Assembly: GCA_963576565.1 (NCBI GenBank)
Contig: OY755046.1
Coordinates: 55,903,471-55,967,470 of the forward strand
Direction: 5' to 3'
Source: Aspidapion aeneum
Taxonomy: Eukaryota > Arthropoda > Insecta > Coleoptera > Brentidae
DNA length: 64,000 nt
Shown here: piece after piece, positions 2,451 through 55,282 of the stretch
Position numbering within the stretch: the first letter of the stretch is position 1
How the letters are laid out: each line of letters starts with the position of its first letter
Made by a program: the position numbers and the translations under genes
The notes under the pieces: model-generated
The model's input: the letters and a program-made list of their open reading frames with translations, nothing else
Database searches by the model: none
What the model was told of the DNA's origin: nothing

Positions 2451-2845
2451 ATCTATGTTATAAAATTAATTTTTTATTGAAATATATCTACTTAATTATA
2501 TTGACGTTATTTAGTTAGAAATTAAAATTTAGAATGGAAAATTTTGCTAAAATTTGAAATTTCATAGATCATGAATTAATTTGTTTACAGTTGACACAAT
2601 TTTTTTTACTTGGCCTATATTATGTGAAACTGTTTGTTATTTTAATTTTTTCCTGGTATAAATTTTTCCAATCGCCCTTCATTCAATCGATTTTACGCCA
2701 AAATTAGTTCAATAATTATACTTTTTACATAAAAATAATTTTGCTTAGTGACATTAAAAAATTTTCCTTTAAATAGAAAACGTGTATTTTTTTAACATCC
2801 AACAACAAATATTCAAAGTAAATGAATATTACTGGAATATATTAA
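2451..2845. other. AT-rich stretch, nothing recognised
   Basis: This segment is very AT-rich, with no frame, hairpin or shared repeat that I can support. Confidence 0.5.
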
Positions 2846-2847
2846 TA

Positions 2848-3256
2848 GGGACATATTATGGTCATTTACAGAAAATTTAACAGCTGTTACCGTTATTGGT
2901 ACTAAGAATAACGTTAACATTCAGGGCAAAAAAGATAGATTTTGGAACACTAAAGATGAGCATAATACAAACGTTAATTTAGTAGTTTCACACTCTTTCA
3001 ACCTTTTGTTTATTTATGTTTGTTTGTTAATTTTTATTAGATTTATGGCTTTTTACAAACCAAACCTCCGAATTTGGGTAAAAAATTCGACTGCATTAAA
3101 AAAAAACAATACAAAACTAACCTTAAAAAATAACGGTACCACTAGAGGACGGCCACCGTAATTAAATAAAAAAAAAGAGCGAGAAGATGCTATTGCGCAG
3201 ACTCAGTAATACCAATAACGGTAACAAAGTGTAAAATACGCGACCCAAAATGTCCC
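2848..3256. mobile_element. TA-target MITE
   Basis: The left end GGGACATATTATGG and the right end CCAAAATGTCCC are inverted. An inner block TTACCGTTATTGGTA on the left is repeated inverted as TACCAATAACGGTAAC on the right. TA flanks are at 2846-2847 and 3257-3258. The element is 409 bp and non-coding. The TA target suggests Tc1/mariner, but other TA-using superfamilies are possible. Confidence 0.6.
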
Positions 3257-7262: not shown

Positions 7263-7740
7263 GTCATGGATCAATTAATTTTTTAATTTTGTTGCACCGT
7301 TGTTGATTAGATGTAACCTAAATGTTATTCGATTCAAGGTTGCACATAAAATAAATAAATAAAAACAAAAACTTGGCGCCTTGCGCTGACTGGAATATTT
7401 TAATAATCTTCAATTCTAATCTTTGAATTCAGATGCGTTGAACCTTACATTAGATTAAAGCATGGGAATATTGTAAAGGTTGTGGAAAAATTGGTTTAAT
7501 GTTGCATCAGACATCAGATTGGAATAAAACCTGACTTTATTCTAGACTCGACTTTATTCTGACACATTTGCACAGAAAACAGCTGACCTCTCAAAATTGA
7601 CATATCAAAGCCAAATTTAATAATACAAAAAATCAAACAAGTTTCGTGGCTAATCGGGCAAAAAGGAGTTTTTGTTTCTCTCATATTTTTCCGTGGGTAG
7701 CCTGAAAGCTTAACCTCACGGGGGTCCAAGATCAAATGGA

Positions 7741-7806
7741 CACCTAATAAGTGTTGACAGTTAACTGTTTCGTCCTTATGGGACTCCTCAGAACACTGCT
7801 GGTCAA
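7741..7806 (-). ncRNA. Hammerhead ribozyme motif (type I), family X copy 1
   Basis: On the minus strand: stem I 5' GTGTT (7792-7796), core CTGAGGA (7785-7791), stem II GTCC-CATAA-GGAC (7772-7784), core GAAA (7768-7771), palindromic stem III CAGTTAACTG, cleavage triplet GTC (7756-7758), stem I 3' AACAC (7751-7755). Stem I and stem II pair perfectly. Cleavage is predicted between 7756 and 7755. The variable core position is G (CTGAGGA), which the hammerhead consensus allows. Very short palindromic stem III is characteristic of hammerheads in retrozymes and Penelope-like elements, which may act as dimers. Confidence 0.8.
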
Positions 7807-8108
7807 TGTGACAAATCTTGCGAAGTTAATTAGATGGTTTTGTCTCTAATCAAATGTAAATAGTAAGAAAACTATCGCAAGAAGCGCCATCTACCGAGAT
7901 ACGAGAGAAACAAAAAACAAAAGCAGGCGAAACACAGCTATACAATATCGATCAATGAAAAGATCGAATGCAAATGAAAGAAAACAACTATAGTCCGTGA
8001 CCTACGACAGCTCTTTGTCTTTCAGGCCGGATCAACACATATTGCATCTTTACCCGTCATCAAGACAGTGAGCGTCAATCAATGGAATTTTTAAGCCAAA
8101 TAATACTA

Positions 8109-8653
8109 ATAGCGATTTCGGCTTCACTGCTCTGAAATCACTCGCGGGTAGAGCGGTAACGTCACGAATCTCTCTCAGAGCACCCCGGAATTGATCTGAG
8201 ATCGAGCGGGATTGCTCGCCTTCGGAGCAAGGACGAACATAATTTTTCAAACACTTGATCGAAATTTCGTGGGTTTTATAACCTTAACAAATAAAAAATA
8301 TTGGTGGTTTATAATTTTTTTATATAAATTTTTTTGGTGTAATGGAGTATATGAATGTACATTTTCTAGATGCAAAACACCGAAAATACTTATAAAAACA
8401 CAAATATAGCAAAGTTAGAAACAAATTAATCATATCTAAGAAATAGGATTAGGTTTTTGTTTTGATCTGAAACGTTGCTCCGTCAAAAGAGATGGAGCAA
8501 TTCAGAGCACCCGCTCGGAGATTTGCGGGTAATAGTCGAGCACGCAAATCTTTTTTAGAGCACCGCTCTTTTTTAGGTCAAACGCGTGCATCTGTTTCAG
8601 ATCAATTTTCGAGCACTCCAGGACAGTTTTAGAGCAAAAGCCGAAATCGCTAT
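8109..8653. mobile_element. TA-target MITE inserted in the hammerhead repeat
   Basis: The 545-bp element has inverted ends ATAGCGATTTCGGCTT and AAGCCGAAATCGCTAT and TA flanks at 8107-8108 and 8654-8655. The related unit at 14151-14650 reads straight through the corresponding point (ccaaataatacc then aacaaacg), which confirms an insertion. Internal gagca-rich words recur. It has no transposase. Confidence 0.7.
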
Positions 8654-8722
8654 TACAAACGTGGAATTTCGTACCCGTGAATTTAAAAATCAAACTAAGT
8701 TTCGTGGCTAATCGGGCAAAAT

Positions 8723-13845: not shown

Positions 13846-14246
13846 GAGCCATCTCTTTTGCGCCTGATTTTATTTTGGCCAGACTATAGCTTTATTTTCA
13901 TTGAAAACTTAATTTCTAATTAATTTGTAAAAACTACGTTTCTCTAGCTGTTGTCGTTTTAAAGATATCTACGATTTTCTTTTTTTTTGTAAATTGGGAT
14001 AGCAAAGGTTGAAGCCATTATATTACAGTTAAAAATGTAATTCTCAATCTAAATTTAAAAAACAGTGTTTATTTCGCTTTTAATCATTTTTTTATGTTTC
14101 AAAAACTGTGACTTTGACGAGTTTTAAATAACGATAAATATTCAAAAAAGGTTTCGTGGCTAATCGGGTAAAAAATTTTTTTGTTTCTCTCATATTTCTC
14201 CGTGGGCAGCTCAAAAGTTTAACCTCACAGGGGTTCAAGATCTAAT

Positions 14247-14313
14247 GGACACCTAATGTGTTGACCGTTAACTGTTTCGTTCTTATGGAACTCCTCAGAA
14301 CACTGCTTGGTCA
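14247..14313 (-). ncRNA. Hammerhead ribozyme motif (type I), family X copy 2
   Basis: On the minus strand: GTGTT, CTGAGGA (14292-14298), stem II GTTC-CATAA-GAAC (14279-14291), GAAA (14275-14278), stem III CAGTTAACGG, GTC (14263-14265), AACAC (14258-14262). Relative to the copies at 7741 and 37757, the stem II pair C-G has become U-A with both partners changed, so the helix is kept. One pair of stem III is weakened. Cleavage is predicted between 14263 and 14262. Confidence 0.78.
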
Positions 14314-14750
14314 ATGTGACACCCTTGCGAAGTTAATCAGACTTTTGTCTCTTATTCTACGTCTATAGTAAGAAAACTCTCGCAAGAAGCGCCATCTACT
14401 GAGATGCGAGAAAATCTGGAACAAGAGCAGGCGAGTATAAACTGCTATATATATCGATCGATGAAAAGATCGATTGCAAAGAAAAAAAACCATCCGTGAC
14501 TTACGACAGCACTTCTGTCTTTCAGGCCAGATCAACGCTTATTAGCGTTTTTACCCACCTTCAGACATGAGCATCAATCAGCGGAATTTTTAAGCCAAAT
14601 AATACCAACAAACGTAAATTTTAGTACCCGTGAATTTAAAAATCAAACAAGTTTTCATGGCTAATCGGGTAAAAAAAAGTTTTTTTTTCTTATATTTTTC
14701 CGTGGGTGGTTCAAAAGTTTAACCTCACGGCGGTCCAAGATCTAATGGAT

Positions 14751-14800
14751 ACCTAATAAGTGTTGACAGTTAACTGTTTCGTCCTTATGTGACACCCTTG
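14751..14800 (-). pseudogene. Broken hammerhead motif in the second tandem unit
   Basis: The GTC triplet, palindromic stem III, GAAA core and half of stem II are present. About 29 bases containing CTGAGGA and the 5' strand of stem I are missing compared with the other units. It cannot fold as a hammerhead. Confidence 0.7.
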
Positions 14801-15149
14801 CGAAGTTAATCAGACCATTTTCCATATTTATGAATGGCTAAAAATCTAATTCGTTTTTTTCTAAATGACGGGTTCCAGAACAATCATTTTAATGATACTA
14901 CTCGTGTAGTTTTTTATGCAAGAAATTAACAAAAAGTGCTTTTTAATTATCGACAATAAAAAACGTGTAAGTATCCTAATAACATATCTGATTAGCTCAT
15001 TTTTTTAAGTCATTCTTTACTAAAGGAAATGTTTAACAAGTTGTTTTTTTAAACTAAACTTCTAGGGTCAAGTAGTGTGAAAGTGAGGCACCCAAAAGCC
15101 CGTTCAAAAATGAGATATTTAAATAAAAAAAAAATTTATAAAAAAAAAT

Positions 15150-20756: not shown

Positions 20757-21528
20757 AGCTCACACATATACTATACTATAGTAGTGTGAGCTATGGTGAT
20801 CCTAATTTTTTCAAGAAAAAAAAAGTTGCTCCGATTTAAAAAATTTTTATATATCTTTGCGTTTCAGATGATTTTGAAACTTTTTTGTCGCGCCGTCTGT
20901 CTGTCTGTCTGTCTGTCTGTCTGTATGTCTGTCTGTCTGTCTGTCTGTATGTCTGTATGTCTGTATGTCTGTGTGTCTGTCTGTAACGACCAACGCGCAT
21001 ATCTCAAAAACCGCTCGCCCGATTTCAATGAAGTTTGGTACCTAGCCTGGATCTTGGGTCGAGATGGTCCCATTTAAAAACGAACAAAATCCACCGAACA
21101 CAAGCCAAGTAAAAGGGTGGGGGTAGATTTCAAAAATTAGAGTTTATGTGAAAATATAGCGTGTGTGATATTAAACGAAAGGTAGTTAAGTGTGGAGTTA
21201 AACAAAATAAATTTTAGTTAAAAGAAAGGGTGGGGGTAGATTTCCAAAATTAGAGTTTACGTGAAAATATGGCGTGTGTGATATCAAACGAAAGGTAATT
21301 GAGTCTGGAGTTGAACAAAATACATTTTAATTTTTGTTTTTTTTAAGGGGGGGAAGTTTCAAAAATTCGAGTTTAAGTCAAAACATGGCTTGTGTGGTAT
21401 CAAACGAGAGGTAATTTAGTCTGGAGTTGAATAACATATATTACAGTTTTTAGTTATATTAGCTCACACGTACACTATAACTATAGTACCTAGTGTGAGG
21501 TTAGGGGCCCATATATTGGCAGAGTATT
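20757..21528 (+). repeat. mini-me-type repeat with TGTC microsatellite, copy 1
   Basis: The structure in order: a hairpin end (agctcacac facing gtgtgagct around ctatactatag), an A-rich block, a (CTGT)n microsatellite at about 20897-20985, a conserved aacgaccaacgcgcat...tttggtacc block, two to three diverged tandem units of about 105-110 bp with gggtgggggtagattt, and a second hairpin agctcacac...gtgtgagg ending in catatattggcagag. Relatives are at 41391-42180 (inverted) and 54596-55282. Frames across the microsatellite are artefacts. Confidence 0.75.
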
Positions 21529-29678: not shown

Positions 29679-29683
29679 GTTTT

Positions 29684-30155
29684 TGTTAGTCCACGGATAG
29701 AAAAAAACGCTAAATGCAGTGGACTGTAAATATTTTAATTAATGATAGCGCGAACAAACATAAATATTGATATGAAATTACGAAATAATCTAAACGTCCA
29801 TAGGAAAAATATTGTGACACACAACGGTAATCAGACAAATGCACTCACCCCTTTTGCAGCCAAATTCTCCACTTCCAAGGGGCCCCTGATGGATCTAATG
29901 ATGTCACCACGTAGCTGAAGGGTTGAAGTTTCTAGTTCTATGCTTCAGTACACAAAAATCGAGCACTTTCAGGTGTAGATATTTGAAAATAGTTGGAGAA
30001 CGAAATTAACACGGCTTTTTCTCTAGGCGATTGACAAGGATCTCCCCGGTTGTTGGTGCGCATGTCCAAATACGCGGAATGCGCTTTGTCCTTCATACAG
30101 TTGTGTGTTTTTAAAAATATATATAAACAACCGCGAAATTTAGCGGGAGCTAACA
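29684..30155 (-). repeat. 3' LTR of the BEL/Pao element
   Basis: 472 bp; on the coding strand it reads TGTTAGCTCCCGC...GGACTAACA. It differs from the other LTR at two sites by eye (agttgg against aattgg, and cacggc against cacgcc). A TATATATA-like stretch near 30114-30125 could serve a core promoter, which is inference. Confidence 0.92.
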
Positions 30156-30389: not shown

Positions 30390-33300
30390 TTAATTTGGCA
30401 AGAGGCACAGTTTTACAACTGGCCGCTTATAAACACCGGTAACCGTTTGTACCGACGCAACACGCAACTGACCGTCCCCGCCGGGATGCAGTTCGATGAC
30501 CCGACCGACCGGCCATTTCAAAGGCGATTGAATGTGATCACTTGTTATGATAACCAAATCATTTAATTTGATATTTGGGGACAAATCAGTCCACTTGTGT
30601 CGCTGTTGTAGCGTATGCAAATACTCTATAGAATACCGTTTCCAAAAATCATTATGTAGTTTTTGGATTAGTTGCCATCTCGAGAGCCGATTTAGGGGAA
30701 CCTCGGACAAATCTGACTCCGGAATTTCTGAATTAAGGGGTTCAAGTGTCAAAAAATGCCCAGGGGTAAGAGGTTGAAGATCGTGTGGGTCTGAAGAGGC
30801 AGGAGATAAAGGGCGACTATTCAGTACGGCTTCTATGCGACAGGTAAGGGTGGACATCTCCATGATAGACAACTTCTGGTCGCCGACGACTCGTACAAAG
30901 TGAGTTTTAAAACTTTTGACGCCAGCTTCTGCCAGGCCATTGAAATGTGGACTGAGAGGAGGTCCCAGATGCCAACGAATAGAAAGTCTGGTGGCAGCAC
31001 TTCTTGCGTAATCCAGTAATTGGTTACGAAACCCTATAAAATTACTGCCTTGATCTGACCAGCATTGCGTCACGCTTCCGCGTCTGGAAATGAATCGATG
31101 GAATGCACCTACGAACCCTTCGGTGGACAGTTCCATGGTTAATTCCAAATGCACGCAATGTGTGGCCGTACAGACAAACACACAGACATACGATTTGAAA
31201 GCTTTACAACCACGGTAACGATGAGGAATCACAAAGAAAGGTCCACAAAAGTCGATAGCTATACTCGAAAAAGGTTTTAGTTGATTGATTCGATGAGCGG
31301 GAAGTGAACTCATTATGGGCGGTCTATAGGGTTTAGGGTTGATTCTAAAACATTGCAAGCACTTGGATATGGTTCTTTGAATTGCCCGTCTGGCAGATAA
31401 TATCCAAAATTGCTGTAAAAGCAGATTATGTAATGATTTAAACCCAGGATGAAGATATTGTCGATGAGCGGACTCGATAAGAAGAGTAGTTAAACGATGG
31501 TCACTCGAAAGTAAGACGGGGTGTTTTGCAGAATAAGACAAAAGGTTAGATTTTTGTAATCTGCCACCGACTCTAATGATATTATTCTCATCAAGAAAAG
31601 GTGAAAGTTTTCGCAAAGGTTTCGGTATTGGTTTATCCTTAGATAACGCGGAGAAAAGCTCAGAAAAACAAGAACCTTGAACGCGTTTGATAAGAAGGTG
31701 TAACGCACTTTGCATCTCACCGGTGGTAGGAAAAACAATATTCTCAAAAATAACCTTTTGGTCCGGCGGCTTAGTGGGTTTTTGATAGGAATGGTTTTGA
31801 AAAAGGTTAACTATTCGAAGGACATAACAAATGATACATTGAATTTTTGATATATATGAATATTTGATAAGAAGCTGATCTAAGAAGTTGACATCAATTA
31901 TCGCATTGCAACAGACTTTTGACTTTTCCTCCAGATTAATATCTCCGAAATCAATCGGCATTTTTGATTTATGAAAATCGGGCCATTCGTTTTCGGGAGT
32001 CCACAAATACGACGGTGCGTTCCACCACATGTCATGTGACATGAGCTGTGAAGGGGTGGCCCCTCGTGACGCAATATCGGCTGCATTCAAAGCAGAAGGA
32101 ATGTAGCGCCACGAGTTTGAGGGAATGATTTCTTGGATTCTACTGACTCGATTTCCAACAAAGGTTTGCCAGCGATTAGGAGGGGATGAAAGCCAGTGCA
32201 ATACGACTTGCGAATCGCAGAAAGTAACGATATTTGTAAAAGTTATTTTTCCCTCATAGCTAGATAAAACGAAGTCAATTAATTCGCTTAAAAGAAATGC
32301 GCCTAGGAGTTCTAGCCTAGCCAAAGTTTGTGACTTTATAGGCGCGACCCTAGATTTTGCAGATATGAGAGAAACAGATATATTGTTTTCCTCTTCTACA
32401 CGAAAATATACGACGCCTGCGTAGCCTCGAATTGAAGCGTCACAGAAGCCGATGATTTGACAGGTATTGGTTTTTGACAGTTTCATTTGTCGGGGTAATT
32501 GAAAATTGGAAAGAAGCGGGAATTCAGAACGAAGTTTGTTCCAAAAGTCGATGATAGAAGAATCTGGTTCTTCGTCCCAGCCTATTTTCGATATCCACAA
32601 CTGTTGCAAAATAAATTTTGCTTGTAGCAACAAGGGACAAAGAAAACCTAAGGGATCGAAGATTGTCCCTATGATAGATAAAATAGAACGTTTGGTTGGG
32701 GGTTTGTCCTTCATTCGGCATTGATAAGAAAAAATGTCGTTTTTTGGATGCCATTGAAGTCCTAAAACTTTGATAAAGTGGGGTTCCTCCTTGTCGAAAG
32801 AGAGAGGCATTTGACGATCGGACTCTGGCAATGTTGCCAATAACTCAGGACAATTGCTTGCCCATTTTTTAAGTTCAAATCCTCCCGACTTCAACAAATC
32901 ATTGAGTTCTGTTTGAAGGGAGAGAGCTTCAGAAAGCGAAGGGCTAGTTCCCAAGATATCGTCGATATAGATTGACGTTTTTAGAACAGTACTAGCCATA
33001 GGAAAACGTTCCTTTTCTCTCTCTGCCAGCTCATTTAAGGTACGCATGGCTAGAAAAGGTGAGCATGTCATGCCAAAAGTGACAGTAGAAAGTTCCCACA
33101 CTGAAAGTGGGTCCTGTGGAGAAAACCTCCACAATATCCTTTGATAAGGACGGTGATAAGGATTGATAAGGACTTGACGGAACATCTGTTTGATGTCAGC
33201 AATGTAGGCAATAGGATTAAGACGAAACGTAAGGAGTAAAGAAGCAATATCCTTTTGAAGTTTCGGTCCAGATAACAATGTGTCATTGAGACTAATATTT

Positions 33301-35660
33301 TTTGGGGTGACTGCCGAACAATCCCAGACTACCCTTAATTTTGTACTTAAGCTTTCCGGCTTTAGTACGCAATGATGTGCTAAAAAACACGACACGTCGA
33401 CCTTTGGTTGACTAGATAAAACTAAACTCATATGATTAGAATCGATATAGTCTTGCATGAAACTTGAATAGGCAGTGTACAGATCAGGATTTTTGATTAA
33501 TCTATTTTCTAGAAGTAAAAATCTACGATAAGCTTGCGGATAAGTATTTCCTAGGTGAGGGTTTATTTTGTCTTTAAACGGAAGATCTACCATGAATCTA
33601 CCGCTCGGTTGCCGTACTACACTAGCAGTAAAAATTGATTCTGCCTGTTTTTCTTCCTTTGATAAGATTTGTTTTTTAGGCAAATGTTCGATTTCCCAAA
33701 ACCTAGGGAGAATGACCTCTAAAGGAGGTGAATGACTCGTTAAAAAACAACTGGTTCGTTCCGTAAGACTACCTACTTCGTCAACCTTTCCCATGACGAC
33801 CCAGCCAAAGATAGTTTCAAGGGCTGAAGGCTGCCCTACCTGTCCAAGAACCCTGCCCTCCTTGAATATCTGTGCGAATAGCTCGCAACCAATAACCAGG
33901 TCCACAGGTCTAAATTTGAAATAAGATGGGTCGGCAAGTTTAAGGTTTTGCAAGTGTTTCCACTGATTATCGTTCAAAGAGAATGTAGGCATATTGGAAC
34001 ATAGTTGTGGAACAACAATTGCTTCGAAATTAAGTAAAGGAGTGACTTGTCCTTGTGGCTTAATGTGACATTGAACGAGCCCTTTGGAAGTGAAAGAAGA
34101 CATCTGATTTAATCCGAATATTTCAGTGGTGTAACTTCGCCTAGGAAGATTAAGACGCTGCATACACTTTTCACTGATGAATCCTGTCTGCGATCCAGAA
34201 TCAAGCAGTGCCCTTACAGGTTGAAAATTTCCGCAACCGTCCATAACATCTATTATGGCGGTGCATAAAAGAAAGGTACCTGAAGGTCCTGAGGCATTTA
34301 ATGACACATGAAGATTATTGACAGGTGGTGTGTGAATGACAGGACTAGTATCTTGGCTTCCAGACTCTTGATTAGTTTCTAAGATATGAGTTAAAGTGTG
34401 GTGCCTTTTACTATTGCAAGTCCTGCATGAATATTTTGATTTGCACGTTTCTACATTATGCAAGGGATGAAAACACGCTAGACATAATTTTTTCTGTTTG
34501 ACGAAAGATAGGCGATCGATAGGTGAGAGATCAAGAAATGTTTGACATTTCGAAAGCACGTGACCTTGATTACACCGGAAACATTTTATTCCCGTACTCG
34601 AATTAGTTGAGGTGCCAGCCAGTCCTATAAAAGGCGAATTGGATGATTTATAGGTAGGCTTTTGCCCAAACTGATTTCGCATAGAAATTGAATTTTGATA
34701 GGTAGGCTTTTGCCCAGACTGATTTTGCATAGAATTTGATTTTTGATATATAGGCACCTTTTTGGGTGCTGTTGATTGAGGAAGTGATTCCAAAACTTTA
34801 CATCTTTTTTCTAGAAATTGAAAAAGTGACTGAAAAGTGGGAATTTCGGTATTAGTATTGGCGTGACTCATTTCGAAATTTGAACGCGTTGGAATATCCA
34901 ATTTTTCTAATAAAATGAAAAAAATAATAAAGTCCCAACTGTCAACGTCAAAGCTAAGTGATTTTAAAATTTCTAGGGATTCAGAAAAGGTGTCAATTAA
35001 ATTACGTAATTCTTTAGCTGACTCGTTTTTTAAGGTGGAGTTCATAATTGAGCTTAAAGCATCATTTGCGAGGTCTCGCTTGTTTTGATATCTATTGACT
35101 AATTTGTCATAAGCAATTTTATAATTTTGATCAGATAAGCTAATCCCTGATATCAATTTTAAAGGCTCATCCTCGAGATATGAAAATAAATATTGAAGTT
35201 TTCGAACGTTACTTAGACTTTGATTTTGATCTATAATGTTATTAAAAAGATCGAAAAAGCTTGGCCATAATTTTTTATCACCTCGGAATATGGGAATACC
35301 TAACTCCTTGAGTTTTGGAGTTTCAGATTCGTTTTGTCGAACATATGATCCCGAAAAAGATGGGGCCTCAACCGGAAATATTTTAGAGTAAACCCCCTTA
35401 CACGCATAAAAATATTTACGAGCTTCTGAAAGGATCGCATCCTGCGTTTTAAACTCCTCGTCGTCTGTGTCGTCTATCAACATAATGACGTCATTATGCG
35501 CCAGCATGCATTTATCGAAGGTTTCATCCAAATCGGAATACCTCACTTGAAACTCGTTCATCGCTCTTTCATCCTTTTCCGCAGTCTTTGACAACACATA
35601 ACACTCGGTGATCGCAGATAAAAAACCCTTGCGTTTTTGTACGGCTTTTTTGACAGACAT
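30390..35660 (-). CDS. BEL/Pao Gag-Pol polyprotein, intact
   Basis: A single frame of 1,756 residues from the Met at 35660 (MSVKK); an in-frame Met 14 codons upstream is also possible and the residue numbers here count from it. Order: Gag region; three Cys/His knuckle-type modules near 373-445, the first CFRCNQGHVLSKC; aspartic protease LDSGSQTGF near 500; reverse transcriptase with YIDDILG near 914; RNase H region with FCDAS; integrase zinc module HPGF...CLQC near 1420-1460; DDE integrase core with AIDFCGPF, SDQGSNFIG and the glutamate in FNGLAEAGVKSF near 1486-1595; and a C-terminal domain with FWKRY near 1700, typical of BEL/Pao. No frameshift or stop interrupts it. It would be cleaved into virus-like-particle protein and replication enzymes. 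Confidence 0.95.
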   Translation of the reverse strand: MSVKKAVQKRKGFLSAITECYVLSKTAEKDERAMNEFQVRYSDLDETFDKCMLAHNDVIMLIDDTDDEEFKTQDAILSEARKYFYACKGVYSKIFPVEAPSFSGSYVRQNESETPKLKELGIPIFRGDKKLWPSFFDLFNNIIDQNQSLSNVRKLQYLFSYLEDEPLKLISGISLSDQNYKIAYDKLVNRYQNKRDLANDALSSIMNSTLKNESAKELRNLIDTFSESLEILKSLSFDVDSWDFIIFFILLEKLDIPTRSNFEMSHANTNTEIPTFQSLFQFLEKRCKVLESLPQSTAPKKVPIYQKSNSMQNQSGQKPTYQNSISMRNQFGQKPTYKSSNSPFIGLAGTSTNSSTGIKCFRCNQGHVLSKCQTFLDLSPIDRLSFVKQKKLCLACFHPLHNVETCKSKYSCRTCNSKRHHTLTHILETNQESGSQDTSPVIHTPPVNNLHVSLNASGPSGTFLLCTAIIDVMDGCGNFQPVRALLDSGSQTGFISEKCMQRLNLPRRSYTTEIFGLNQMSSFTSKGLVQCHIKPQGQVTPLLNFEAIVVPQLCSNMPTFSLNDNQWKHLQNLKLADPSYFKFRPVDLVIGCELFAQIFKEGRVLGQVGQPSALETIFGWVVMGKVDEVGSLTERTSCFLTSHSPPLEVILPRFWEIEHLPKKQILSKEEKQAESIFTASVVRQPSGRFMVDLPFKDKINPHLGNTYPQAYRRFLLLENRLIKNPDLYTAYSSFMQDYIDSNHMSLVLSSQPKVDVSCFLAHHCVLKPESLSTKLRVVWDCSAVTPKNISLNDTLLSGPKLQKDIASLLLTFRLNPIAYIADIKQMFRQVLINPYHRPYQRILWRFSPQDPLSVWELSTVTFGMTCSPFLAMRTLNELAEREKERFPMASTVLKTSIYIDDILGTSPSLSEALSLQTELNDLLKSGGFELKKWASNCPELLATLPESDRQMPLSFDKEEPHFIKVLGLQWHPKNDIFSYQCRMKDKPPTKRSILSIIGTIFDPLGFLCPLLLQAKFILQQLWISKIGWDEEPDSSIIDFWNKLRSEFPLLSNFQLPRQMKLSKTNTCQIIGFCDASIRGYAGVVYFRVEEENNISVSLISAKSRVAPIKSQTLARLELLGAFLLSELIDFVLSSYEGKITFTNIVTFCDSQVVLHWLSSPPNRWQTFVGNRVSRIQEIIPSNSWRYIPSALNAADIASRGATPSQLMSHDMWWNAPSYLWTPENEWPDFHKSKMPIDFGDINLEEKSKVCCNAIIDVNFLDQLLIKYSYISKIQCIICYVLRIVNLFQNHSYQKPTKPPDQKVIFENIVFPTTGEMQSALHLLIKRVQGSCFSELFSALSKDKPIPKPLRKLSPFLDENNIIRVGGRLQKSNLLSYSAKHPVLLSSDHRLTTLLIESAHRQYLHPGFKSLHNLLLQQFWILSARRAIQRTISKCLQCFRINPKPYRPPIMSSLPAHRINQLKPFSSIAIDFCGPFFVIPHRYRGCKAFKSYVCVFVCTATHCVHLELTMELSTEGFVGAFHRFISRRGSVTQCWSDQGSNFIGFRNQLLDYARSAATRLSIRWHLGPPLSPHFNGLAEAGVKSFKTHFVRVVGDQKLSIMEMSTLTCRIEAVLNSRPLSPASSDPHDLQPLTPGHFLTLEPLNSEIPESDLSEVPLNRLSRWQLIQKLHNDFWKRYSIEYLHTLQQRHKWTDLSPNIKLNDLVIITSDHIQSPLKWPVGRVIELHPGGDGQLRVASVQTVTGVYKRPVVKLCLLPN

Positions 35661-36049
35661 GATTTTACCTTTGAAATGACGAAATTGTCGGTAAATATAC
35701 AATTAACGCTAAATTAATGCTTCTGAAATAGAAAAATGACGAATTGTCGAAAATATGCACTAATTTATCGCAATTGATGAAAATTGTTTTAAATATCGAA
35801 ATGATATGATACACCACTGAACTTTTGTTTTGTTTGTTTTGATTCCTACTCGCTTTTGTTTATTCCACGCGGAGTAGACCCGTTACTATAGCAGCGGACC
35901 AAAACCAGATACTGCGCCGACTTTCTCTCTCGGCGTTTCAAATACGATGATGCGAAAAATTCAAGGCCGCGTTCTTATTGCAAATAATTATTAATACCGT
36001 CGTATGGATTTATTATTTAAAAATAATTCGGCTCGAAAGGAACACTTTA

Positions 36050-36521
36050 TGTTAGTCCACGGATAGAAAAAAACGCTAAATGCAGTGGACTGTAAATATT
36101 TTAATTAATGATAGCGCGAACAAACATAAATATTGATATGAAATTACGAAATAATCTAAACGTCCATAGGAAAAATATTGTGACACACAACGGTAATCAG
36201 ACAAATGCACTCACCCCTTTTGCAGCCAAATTCTCCACTTCCAAGGGGCCCCTGATGGATCTAATGATGTCACCACGTAGCTGAAGGGTTGAAGTTTCTA
36301 GTTCTATGCTTCAGTACACAAAAATCGAGCACTTTCAGGTGTAGATATTTGAAAATAATTGGAGAACGAAATTAACACGCCTTTTTCTCTAGGCGATTGA
36401 CAAGGATCTCCCCGGTTGTTGGTGCGCATGTCCAAATACGCGGAATGCGCTTTGTCCTTCATACAGTTGTGTGTTTTTAAAAATATATATAAACAACCGC
36501 GAAATTTAGCGGGAGCTAACA
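36050..36521 (-). repeat. 5' LTR of the BEL/Pao element
   Basis: 472 bp, the partner of 29684-30155. Transcription of the element would start here and run toward lower coordinates. The adjoining internal sequence (about 36025-36049) should hold the tRNA primer site, but I could not match it to a particular tRNA and it lacks the usual TGG start. Confidence 0.92.
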
Positions 36522-37211: not shown

Positions 37212-37645
37212 TGGATCCAGTACCTCAAAACGAAAGTGTATTACGGATGTATCATTCCTGTGCTTACGTATGGGTCCTAGACCTGGACACTTACGAAATC
37301 AAATATGGATAAAGTAACAAAAGCCCAAAGATCAATGGAAAGACAAAAGGAATGAATGGATAAGAAAATAAAACAAAAGTAAGGGATGTCAGAGAAGAAG
37401 TAGCAAAATTAAAATGGAAATTTTCCGGTCATAATATTAAACAAAAAGACGATCGATGGAACAAATGTATTGTAAACTGGCGACCTTGTGAAACTAAAAG
37501 AAGTAGAGGAAGACCTCAAATAAGTTGGACGGACGATTTGAAGAAACATGCGGGAACTAGATTGATGAACAAGGCGACAGACAGAGAAGAGTGGAAGATA
37601 TTGGGGGGAGACTGTTCAAAGATGGATCGAAGAAGGCTATAAGAT
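37212..37645 (+). pseudogene. 3' fragment of an RTE-like non-LTR retrotransposon
   Basis: Broken frames spell the usual C-terminal signature: IIPVLTYGS then TWTLTK, a KAQRSMER block, and, after frameshifts, DDRWNKCIVNWRP and RSRGRPQISWTDDLKKHAG. This order is typical of RTE-like or endonuclease-reverse transcriptase LINEs of arthropods. There is no RT core, and stops and frame changes are present. It abuts the end of repeat P at the left and a hammerhead repeat at the right. Confidence 0.65.
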
Positions 37646-37652
37646 CAAACAA

Positions 37653-38165
37653 GTCTTCGTGGCTAATCGGTTAAAAATAAGGGTTTTTTGTTTCTCTCGT
37701 ATTTTTCCGTGGAAAGCTCGAAAGCTTAACCTCACGGGGGTCCAAGATCTATTGGACACCTAATAAGTGTTGACAGTTAACTGTTTCGTCCTTATGGGAC
37801 TCCTCAGAACACTGCTTGGTCAATTAAGTATACGGTTTTGTCTCTCACCTTACATTTCTAGTGAGAAAACAAAATCATATACCCGACAAGAAGCGCCATC
37901 TACCGAAGTACGAGAGAAACTAAAACAGCAACAGGCGAGTAAAAGTTCTATATCATCGATCGATAAAAAGTATCGATTGAAAGAAAGAATCCATCACGTG
38001 ACCTACGACACACATTGCCTTTCTAGATCAACGCTAATTGCGTTTATTCCGCTATCAATTTGTCGGCATTGCGTCTGTCAACGGAGTTTAAAGCCAAATA
38101 TTAAAAAATGTAAAATTTAGTTCCCGTAAATTAAAAATCAAACAAGTTTTCGTGGCCAATCGGTT
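37653..38165 (-). mobile_element. Hammerhead repeat (retrozyme-like), family X copy 3
   Basis: One full unit (37653-38144, 492 bp) is followed by the first bases of the next unit (from 38145), so the arrangement is again head to tail. It shares with copies 1 and 2 the gcgccatctac phrase, a catcgatcgat-like palindromic region near 37960, and the attaaaaatcaaacaag junction. It carries a full hammerhead motif. Confidence 0.65.
37757..37822 (-). ncRNA. Hammerhead ribozyme motif (type I), family X copy 3
   Basis: Identical in core and stems to the motif at 7741: GTGTT, CTGAGGA (37801-37807), GTCC-CATAA-GGAC (37788-37800), GAAA (37784-37787), palindromic CAGTTAACTG, GTC (37772-37774), AACAC (37767-37771). 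Cleavage is predicted between 37772 and 37771. Confidence 0.8.
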
Positions 38166-38169
38166 AAAA

Positions 38170-39294
38170 ATAAGGCTTCGGTTAAGTTAGGATAACAGAA
38201 AATTTCGTTGGCTTTAAGCCTCCTTGTTTAAAGTGAGTAATTAAGATCCTATTTGTCATTTTATAGCAGATATAATATGCAGGATTTCGCGCTTGGTCCG
38301 GGAGATTTATTTTTAATTACTCATTTAAAAATGACGCCGTTGAGTAAGTCGTAATCTAACCGGATTTTTTTATGCACAACAAAAAACAAAAGATTGTTTG
38401 TTTTAAAGATGTGGAATTTGTGAAGCTCGAAGAGTCGAAGAAAACAAAGAAGAGTGGAAAAGTACACACCTACTTTAAATCTTTTTAATAGTAATTCTTT
38501 CACAAGAATAGGAAGATAACACTAGTTTGTTGTTCTTTATCCAAAAATTAAAATGTGTTTGTTTCAGCATCAAAAGTAATCCGCTAACCTACACCATTTG
38601 TTTTCTTCTCAAAACCTTTGATACTAAACGATCAGGCTCAGTTTGACTTGTATGTTAAGTTTTGTGTAAAGAATAATAAAGCGGACTAAAAAAAATAACG
38701 ACTGTACGTCTAAAAAATATTATTTTATAAGGATATTCCAAAAAGCAGTTGGAAAATGGACTTAGTTTTTAAAGATTCCAAAAATATTAGTTGTTCACTA
38801 AAGACCTATCTTATCTAAATTTATTTACAAAAATCAGCTGGCCCACTAGTGACAAAACATTTCACATATAAGATCCATAAACCGGTCTATTCTAGGGACC
38901 GTGGGAAATTATATCGTGTATTTGACCTACACGAATAATAAATAATAACCGGGTGTTTGACCTATGTTTAATTGACGTAAGTACATGTAGGTATATTTAA
39001 ACTACTCACGATTGACTTGAATTAACGATTTTTGCATATTTGATATAAATATTTGAAGAAAATGCTCAGAGTATTTTAATCAAATAATTTATATTAATGA
39101 ATTTATGACCTATTGAACTTAATTGTGTCTATGATTAGCGGAATTGTAACAAAGCAGAAAAAAGCTAATATGTGATTGAGGTAACTATTTTTGTATTTTC
39201 TAATAATTATTTTGTGTAGTTGATTGGATTTTACAAATAATTGGATATTAACCATAATTGGTTCCATTATATATTTATGTGAACCAATATTTTC
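38170..39294. other. AT-rich stretch, no supported feature
   Basis: No convincing frame or terminal repeat. Parts resemble ordinary intergenic sequence. Confidence 0.4.
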
Positions 39295-41390: not shown

Positions 41391-41987
41391 AACTCTGCCA
41401 ATATATGGGCCCCTAAGCTCACACTAGGTACTATAGTTATAGTGTATGTGTGAGCTAATATAACTAAAAACTGAAATATATTTTATTCAACTCCAGACTA
41501 AATTACCTTTTGTTTGATATCACACAAGCCATGTTTTGACTTAAACTGAAATTTTTGAAATCTACCCCCACCCTTACAAAAAAAACAAAAACTAAAATGT
41601 ATTTTGTTAAAGTCCGGACTCAATTATCTTTCGTTTGATATCACACACGCCATATTTTCACTTAAACTATAATTTTTAAAATATACCCCCACCCTTTTTT
41701 TTTAAATAAATTAAAATGTATTTTGTTTAACTGCAGACTCAATTACCTTTCGTTTAATATCACACACGCCATATTTTCACATAAACTCTAATTTTTTAAA
41801 TCTACCCCCACCCTTTTATTTGGTTTGTGTTCGGTGGATTTTGTTCATTTTTAAATGGGACCATCTCGACCCAAGACCCAGCCTAGGTACCAAATTTCAT
41901 TAAAATCGGTCAAGCGGTTTTTGAGTTATGCGCGTTGGTCGTTACAGACAGACATACAGACACACAGACAGACAGACAGACAGACAT

Positions 41988-42037
<50 letters not shown>

Positions 42038-54595: not shown

Positions 54596-55282
54596 TCACA
54601 CTACTACTATACTATAGTATTAGCTCACACTACTACTATACTATAGTAGTGTGAGCTTTGGTGGTGATCCTAATTTTTTCGAGAAAAAAAAAGTTGCTCC
54701 GATTTCAAAATTTTTTATATATCTTTGCGTTTCAGATGATTTTGAAACTTTTTTGTTACGCCGCCTGTCTGTCTGTCTGTCTGTCTGTCTGTATGTCTGT
54801 CTGTATGTCTGTCTGTAACGACCAACGCGCATAACTCAAAAACCGCTTTCTCGATTTTAATCAAATTTGGTACCTAGGCTGGGTCTCGGGTCGGGATGGT
54901 CCCATTTAAAAATGAACGAAATCCATCGATTACAAGCCAAATAAAAGGGTGGGGGTAGATTTCAGAAATTAGAGTTTATGCGAAAATATGGCGTGTGTGA
55001 TATCAAACGAAAGGGTATTGAGTCTGAAGTTAAACAAAATAAATTTTAGTTTAAAAAAAGGCTGGGGGTAGATTTAAAAAAATTGAGTTTAAGTGAAAAT
55101 ATGTCGTATGTGATATCAAATGAAAGGTAATTGAGTCTGGAGTTAAACAAAATACATTTTAGTAAAGAAAAAGGGTGGGGGTAGATTTCAATATATTTCA
55201 GATTTTAGTTATATTGGCTCACACGAACACTAAAACTATAGTACCTAGTGTGAGCTTAGGTACCCATATATTGGCAGAGTAT
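54596..55282 (+). repeat. mini-me-type repeat with TGTC microsatellite, copy 3
   Basis: Same order as 20757-21528; the terminal hairpin is duplicated (agctcacactactactatac occurs twice at 54591-54660). (CTGT)n at about 54766-54815, conserved block, then two to three gggtgggggtagattt units and the closing hairpin followed by catatattggcagag. Confidence 0.75.

Follow-up and report, generated by a model that had tools for sequence, protein, structure and literature searches.

A non-coding hammerhead repeat of the retrozyme type with Penelope-like insertion anatomy in the genome of the beetle Aspidapion aeneum

Background

Metazoan non-LTR retrozymes, for which insects are named among the hosts and whose repeats can give rise to circles of 150 to more than 1000 nt, are among the described systems closest to the repeat considered here (Cervera and de la Pena 2020, PMC7229834, in the sections available). 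Penelope-like elements were put forward in those sections as a strong candidate for the machinery that mobilises the retrozymes, and both the mobilising enzyme and the copying of the circle stand there only as a proposal. Plant retrozymes (PMC4918200), as outlined in PMC7761336 and PMC7229834, are non-autonomous elements of the LTR kind; their hammerheads are of type III, they possess a tRNA primer-binding site and 4-bp duplications, and they give rise to circular RNA. Among satellite DNAs, the repeat pDo500 of the insect Dolichopoda is ~500 bp in length and carries a hammerhead of 49 bp, the available part of its account describing neither insertion ends nor target duplications (PMC2837043).

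Penelope-like elements are characterised by inverted, head-to-head pLTRs, one of which optionally bears a 31-bp tail, and by duplications of 8-10 bp in examples given in the accessible part of the source and none in others (PMC3846280). A Penelope-like element of Anolis carries a hammerhead, and its enzyme cuts and extends both target strands with a preference for AT-rich DNA; internal starts occur at two adjacent sites bounding the tail, the start sites are the same on both strands, the enzyme used unprocessed RNA and ribozyme mutants were still inserted (PMC11167929).

The repeat described in the present study, hereafter repeat X, occurs in a 64-kb window (the whole stretch of 64,000 nt of Aspidapion aeneum contig OY755046.1 that was analysed) and elsewhere in the genome. 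It resembles the metazoan retrozymes in the presence of a type I hammerhead in each short tandem unit, in its low GC content and in its thousands of copies; its unit of 518 bp, however, exceeds the range of 150-450 bp given in the available sections (PMC7229834). With the plant retrozymes it has in common the hammerheads and the non-autonomous state, RNA circles being predicted here, and it is like pDo500 an insect repeat of ~500 bp with a hammerhead. Penelope-like elements share with it the partial tandems, the head-to-head inverted ends, the AT-rich targets and a hammerhead upstream of the priming sites, as well as two 3' ends ~30-40 bp apart, an optional extension of ~30-40 bp on one end and duplications of ~8-10 bp in the examples (PMC11167929; PMC3846280, accessible part), but the repeat X unit examined is non-coding and gives no convincing match to the nine Penelope-like regions compared. 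Repeat X is a non-coding retrozyme-type repeat with Penelope-like insertion anatomy and is not itself a Penelope-like element; the retrozyme reading is well supported, and what is new is the way in which the copies are inserted. Titles and abstract openings in the literature searched, mostly outside subscription journals, reported neither retrozyme insertions with two priming sites nor a retrozyme from a beetle.

Methods

The genome (1,286,157,303 bases in 149 contigs) was searched on both strands with a 32-nt core pattern containing three open positions, and 64 loci were sampled from the 3,561 places found. The first 30 places correspond to loci L003-L032, of which 24 were used, the overlapping L010-L013, L018 and L019 being dropped; L033-L041 were picked for closely spaced ribozymes, L042-L052 and L062-L081 were taken from further down the list and L002 was retrieved independently of the core list. 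As all loci except L002 and the window were chosen by an intact core, the frequency of intact ribozymes in the sample is biased; no direct selection was applied to ends or lengths.

A same-strand stretch placed on the 518-bp unit, in which position numbers start at the predicted cut, or on the 526-bp unit of a second subfamily is referred to as an arm, arms split by later inserts being counted as pieces. Two zones, short (unit 105-145) and long (unit 146-180), were fixed after the first 3' ends and before the second sample. For target duplications, defined as an exact shared word of at least 8 bp near both ends, the head-to-head insertions were grouped more strictly (24 insertions) than in the count of 27 pairs. 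The rare-variant comparison was performed on subfamily A with 43 of 50 copies kept, the separate insertions within L022 and L002 being left out.

Results and Discussion

Hammerhead motifs of the window

The pattern CTGANGA..GAAA..GTC was matched six times in the 64-kb window against a mean of 0.62 in 100 shuffles, none of which reached six. These matches include the minus-strand cores at 7756-7791, 14263-14298 and 37772-37807 (copies 1, 2 and 3, at loci a, b and c), one further reading that overlaps the core of copy 2, and a pair of matches, at 773 and 1243, that belong to a different, repeated sequence. All three copies possess the core of a type I hammerhead, CUGANGA and GAAA with a UH cut site. 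The three minus-strand motifs of a preliminary description of this DNA were recovered where it had placed them and with the core intact. The hammerhead of locus a (7750-7797, minus strand) is of type I and was recognised by pattern, pairs, energy and a score of 25.3 bits with the Rfam model RF00163; its predicted cut falls between 7756 and 7755, as proposed earlier. That of locus c (37766-37813, minus strand) is also of type I, has the same score and is the same as that of locus a over 48 nt, and that of locus b (14257-14304, minus strand) was recognised by pattern, alignment and pairs.

Copies 1 and 3 have a stem I of six pairs; the five-pair stem I attributed earlier to all three applies to copy 2 alone. 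Stem II of the locus a hammerhead has four pairs. The short palindromic stem III reported earlier, four pairs of ACAG/CUGU enclosing UUAA, is fully paired in copies 1 and 3 but broken by an A-G mismatch in copy 2, which carries in addition a compensatory change from C-G to U-A in stem II.

A covariance-model search, suggested in the preliminary description as a check whose failure would refute the reading, turned out negative at the gathering score: RF00163 gave no match in the window at 34 bits, copies 1 and 3 reaching 25.3 bits below the cut-off and copy 2 being unlisted up to E = 10. Ten other loci were likewise sub-threshold with RF00163 (24.3-25.3 bits) and with RF00008 (25.4-27.2 bits, cut-off 48.5). 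The cut-off of 34 bits is a database threshold and not a biochemical definition, and since every pair in the RF00163 alignment of copies 1 and 3 is standard and the core letters match, their low score is not decisive against the hammerhead reading; the atypical stem III presumably lowers it. Over a 55-nt stretch of copies 1 and 3 the hammerhead fold has an energy of -9.8 kcal/mol and the minimum-energy fold -14.1 kcal/mol, so that folding energy alone does not pick the hammerhead. For many pDo500 sequences, too, the ribozyme fold differed from the minimum-energy fold (PMC2837043, available part). A chance origin of the motif was ruled out by the shuffle test in the window together with the genome-wide count given below.

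The window copies lie in three insertions, all on the minus strand. Locus a (7628-8721), delimited by BLAST to the genomic unit and by alignment, is one insertion of ~1.07 units in two pieces (7628-8108 and 8656-8721), its 3' end lying in the short zone (unit 128). The later insert that splits it (8107-8655) has perfect inverted ends of 18 bp (8107-8124 and 8638-8655) beginning with TA and appears from its sequence to be a MITE-like DNA transposon, separate from the retrozyme. Locus b (14135-14815), identified by alignment and comparison to the unit, is a 5'-truncated tandem insertion of ~1.3 units whose 3' end falls at unit 129, within the short zone. A fourth, broken copy, absent from the preliminary description, starts in this locus at ~14815, 500 bp upstream of copy 2 (14765-14815, minus strand), the 5' half of its ribozyme being gone between two CAT triplets. 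Locus c (37641-38178), identified in the same way as locus b, is an insertion of ~1.07 units belonging to a second subfamily (B), and its 3' end is also in the short zone (unit B 133). Target duplications were sought at the three window loci and nothing was established.

Other repeats are also present in the window. A pair of repeats 6,366 bp apart, without a difference over the 300 bp compared (29680-29979 and 36046-36345), flank a retroelement frame of 1,770 codons (30390-35702, minus strand) which is presumably Pao-like, and the repeat pair and the frame probably constitute a young LTR element, judging from the sequence. GTCT/ACAG tetranucleotide arrays at 20895-20984, 41944-42037 and 54765-54816 adjoin dispersed repeats with a tandem of ~113-119 bp. 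A reverse transcriptase domain is clear in three frames of the window and weak in a fourth, and for one reverse transcriptase frame the closest relative that bears a name, behind two better unnamed hits, comes from Callosobruchus, in keeping with a beetle host.

Copy number and conservation of repeat X

The core pattern was matched at 1,787 places on the plus strand and 1,774 on the minus strand, making up the total of 3,561, and a control with the reversed pattern over the same genome gave no match. No match of the core was observed in viral contigs. Same-strand spacings of 509-521 bp were found in five arrays, comprising 12 ribozymes, among the 100 matches listed, and the repeat unit is 518 bp long, that of subfamily B being 526 bp. 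One unit examined is non-coding, with 38.6% GC and a longest sense frame of 45 codons. Copies in the sample are mostly dispersed. The earlier reading of a dispersed, retrozyme- or Penelope-like repeat, with predicted RNAs of ~500 nt, is thus supported by the copy number and the tandems of 509-521 bp, as it is by the insertion ends and the target duplications described below.

Copies 1 and 3 of the window are the same at 48 of 48 ribozyme positions and at 345 of 526 aligned columns outside the ribozyme (gaps taken as differences), and in the three-way alignment the best-conserved stretches of 48 columns overlap the ribozyme. Of 98 copies, 85 retain all 12 core letters that were checked, although the way in which the copies were retrieved favours intact cores. 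In the stems of these 98 copies 15 of 39 one-sided changes still pair, and two of five double changes keep the pairing (the C-G to U-A change in stem II of window copy 2 and a G-C to A-U change in stem I of L021) while three do not; this covariation lends weak support to the three-helix hammerhead fold. Mismatches in 31 copies, a set that includes loci picked for several exact cores, amount to 57 of 1,488 positions in the ribozyme and 206 of 2,845 in the flanks, and in the 17 copies least affected by selection to 51 of 816 and 125 of 1,610, respectively (recounted by hand), the ribozyme being hardly better kept than its flanks in the latter.

The near equality in these 17 copies would suit an ordinary satellite with a fossil ribozyme, spread by unequal exchange or DNA circles, as would the existence of tandem arrays and the description of pDo500 as satellite DNA (PMC2837043, available part). 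Against such an origin stand the thousands of copies, mostly dispersed in the sample, the fixed 3' ends, the target duplications of the head-to-head insertions and the ribozyme that is the same in two window copies which differ elsewhere. A bare satellite is ruled out by the fixed ends and the duplications, and the satellite explanation in general is barely credible.

3' ends and length of the arms

Ninety of 115 arms end in the two zones, ~125 or ~160 nt beyond the predicted cut, and 25 end elsewhere. In the first sample (88 arms from 46 sources) 37 ends are in the short zone, 33 in the long zone and 18 elsewhere, and in the second (27 arms from 20 loci, under the same rules) 13, 7 and 7, respectively. 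With L033-L041 omitted, the two zones, 76 of the 518 positions in all, contain the ends of 73 of 96 arms (p 3e-41). The 10 bp beyond the 90 3' ends have an AT content of 76% versus 68% in the 40-bp flanks.

The lengths of the zone-starting arms, again without L033-L041, are below 250 nt in 22 cases, 250-449 nt in 21, 450-649 nt in 27, 650-849 nt in one and 850 nt or more in two, a modest count in which the step in length was noticed before counting and arms with two ribozymes had more chances of being sampled. Thus, arms rarely exceed ~640 nt, yet some reach ~1,600 nt and one in L028 at least 3,000 nt. The long arms extend back through uncut ribozyme sequence, which indicates that the template was uncut at that point, or was rejoined or circular. 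A circular template is favoured by the scarcity of arms longer than about one lap, since an enzyme that rounds the circle once and then meets its own start should produce a step in arm length slightly beyond one unit, and no such step is predicted by a linear multimer.

It is nevertheless conceivable that the Penelope-like machinery moves the retrozyme from an uncut linear transcript of several units and not from a circle. The Anolis enzyme did without ribozyme cutting in vitro (PMC11167929), the alternative fold is more stable than the hammerhead, and the few arms of ~1,600 nt and more are readily accommodated by such a transcript. The drop from 27 arms of 450-649 nt to a single arm of 650-849 nt is not what a linear template predicts, and this explanation is considered unlikely. 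As the Anolis enzyme used unprocessed RNA and inserted mutants, cutting and circles may be dispensable, and the Anolis data, in which ribozyme activity was unneeded and the start site was the same on both strands, count against the strongest form of the reading with a circle and two sites.

Head-to-head insertions and target duplications

Minus-then-plus pairs of arms, no more than 900 bp apart and most of them abutting, number 27 in the first sample and four in the second, and tail-to-tail neighbours were observed once in each (~570 bp apart in the first). One short and one long end are present in 14 of the 15 head-to-head pairs with both ends in zones, that is, in 13 of 14 informative pairs of the first sample (p 0.0009 against equal chances) and in the only informative pair of the four in the second. 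The remaining 13 of the 27 first-sample pairs are uninformative, the plus arm ending elsewhere in seven, the minus arm in five and both in one; among the uninformative pairs at least one, in L028, runs off the end of the stretch retrieved, and L040, L041 and L045 look split by later inserts. Two fixed priming zones with one of each at head-to-head ends are not described for metazoan retrozymes in the available sections of PMC7229834, and this use of one end of each kind differs from the Anolis element, whose start site is the same between strands (PMC11167929).

Target duplications of 8-12 bp were found in 10 of the 24 head-to-head insertions, the shuffled mean being 1.05 and the maximum five in 500 shuffles. 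Duplications in metazoan retrozymes are, when present, likewise longer than 4 bp (PMC7229834, available sections). Single-orientation insertions have duplications of at least 8 bp in 2 of 38 cases, not above chance (shuffled mean 0.67, maximum three), and in the second sample such duplications occur in 3 of 21 against a mean of 0.89, inside the shuffled range (maximum four).

The origin of both arms from one template was assessed through rare variants. Arms or units of one locus have 0-11 rare variants in common (13 pairs, mean 3.8 by hand sum), and the corresponding values between loci are a mean of 0.37, a 95th percentile of two and a maximum of 20, the last in one pair. The inverted arm and both tandem units of L034 have five to seven in common, two of the 13 pairs (L016 and L048) have none, and the nearest neighbour of a copy is from its own locus in 11 of 24 cases. 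Both arms of the head-to-head insertions in L008, L014, L039 and L048 stop at unit ~315-373, a region with palindrome-like, GATC-rich sequence, and the inner joint of head-to-head insertions may form by annealing there.

Copying of the repeat by a LINE in the manner of a SINE, with the inverted pairs arising from twin priming, was also considered. 5' truncation and inversions are LINE traits, and those of repeat X fit LINE copying; the reverse transcriptase frames of the window, three clear and one weak, are read here as LINEs, and the seven of 27 pairs in which only the plus-strand arm ends outside the zones are also in keeping with it. In twin priming, however, inverted arms begin at scattered places, whereas nearly all informative pairs use each zone once, and the flanks inspected showed neither poly-A nor an evident simple repeat next to the 3' ends. 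Mobilisation by a LINE is therefore highly improbable.

Penelope-like elements of the genome

GIY-YIG matches number at least 91 in the genome, with 150 of 633 candidates scored, and the reverse transcriptase motifs located beside GIY-YIG in L053, L055 and L056 are presumably of the Penelope type. Comparison of the repeat X unit with nine Penelope-like regions (six and a further three) gave only short, weak matches. The best of these is 27 bp long at 85% (E 0.005, L055) and lies around the short zone of subfamily B, those with L060 being 17-24 bp long (E 0.03-0.3); on the sequences compared, all were taken as probably due to chance. An endonuclease motif is present in 4 of 53 sources (the window and L001-L052, some overlapping), in none of which was repeat X seen by eye as the terminal repeat of the frame with the motif. 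The unit has no frame with reverse transcriptase and GIY-YIG, and because the unit examined is non-coding, repeat X is not classed as a Penelope-like element.

Some Penelope-like sequences lie close to hammerhead-bearing DNA. L006 has a head-to-head repeat X copy between two Penelope-like pieces (1205-1339, 1340-2035 and 2601-3031), and the 3' ends of a Penelope-like family in L059 (1-371) and L060 (286-443) contain a motif that by eye resembles a hammerhead. Neither L059 nor L060 gave an Rfam match for this motif, which in L059 has U in place of the core letter C3 and A in place of G8.

The repeat could, alternatively, be the pseudo-LTR of an autonomous Penelope-like element that was copied while the coding part was left behind; ribozyme and start sites would then be those of the parent. 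The order of the ribozyme followed by the start sites and the tail is as in Penelope-like elements (PMC11167929), such elements are common in this genome, one has repeat X between two of its pieces in L006, and the weak match of L055 falls on the short zone of subfamily B. The poor matches of the unit to the nine regions, the lack of repeat X as a terminal repeat in the four sources with the endonuclease motif and the tandem arrays of units devoid of a coding part speak against such a descent, which is regarded as quite improbable.

Probable mode of spread

Machinery of the Penelope type is suggested by the pair of fixed start sites and by the fact that both ends of the target are used. Repeat X is probably a retrozyme-type repeat that spreads through RNA circles and is likely to be copied by a Penelope-like reverse transcriptase-endonuclease at two fixed sites. 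Transcripts of the non-coding repeat of ~518 bp are predicted to cut themselves at the type I hammerhead, and the cut RNAs to be closed into circles. A Penelope-like reverse transcriptase-endonuclease would then probably copy the circle into the genome, starting from either of two fixed positions that lie downstream of the ribozyme, and copying would run round the circle about once before meeting its own start.

A more far-reaching and tentative proposal, held with rather less confidence, is that animal retrozymes parasitize Penelope-like elements, one circle being copied twice per insertion such that each nicked strand primes at its own site, 30-40 nt apart, is extended for at most about one lap and meets the other head to head. 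If true, the insertions of this genome would be the first to reveal by their anatomy which enzyme mobilises animal retrozymes and that its template is an RNA circle. With thousands of copies of readable anatomy, the question can be addressed through counts of ends, of laps and of target duplications.

A second hammerhead family

A second hammerhead, different in sequence and with the stem III CACCGGTG, is present in L001 at 1501-1547 on the minus strand (G000:C9:59493794-59493840). Its assignment to the neighbouring LINE-like sequence was rejected, as the alignments of the latter to other loci stop at ~L001 1710. The hammerhead is placed between a repeat X copy and the LINE-like sequence and, with 40.6 bits under the Rfam type I model, is above the cut-off, being the only match among the 74 of 155,298 genome candidates that were scored.
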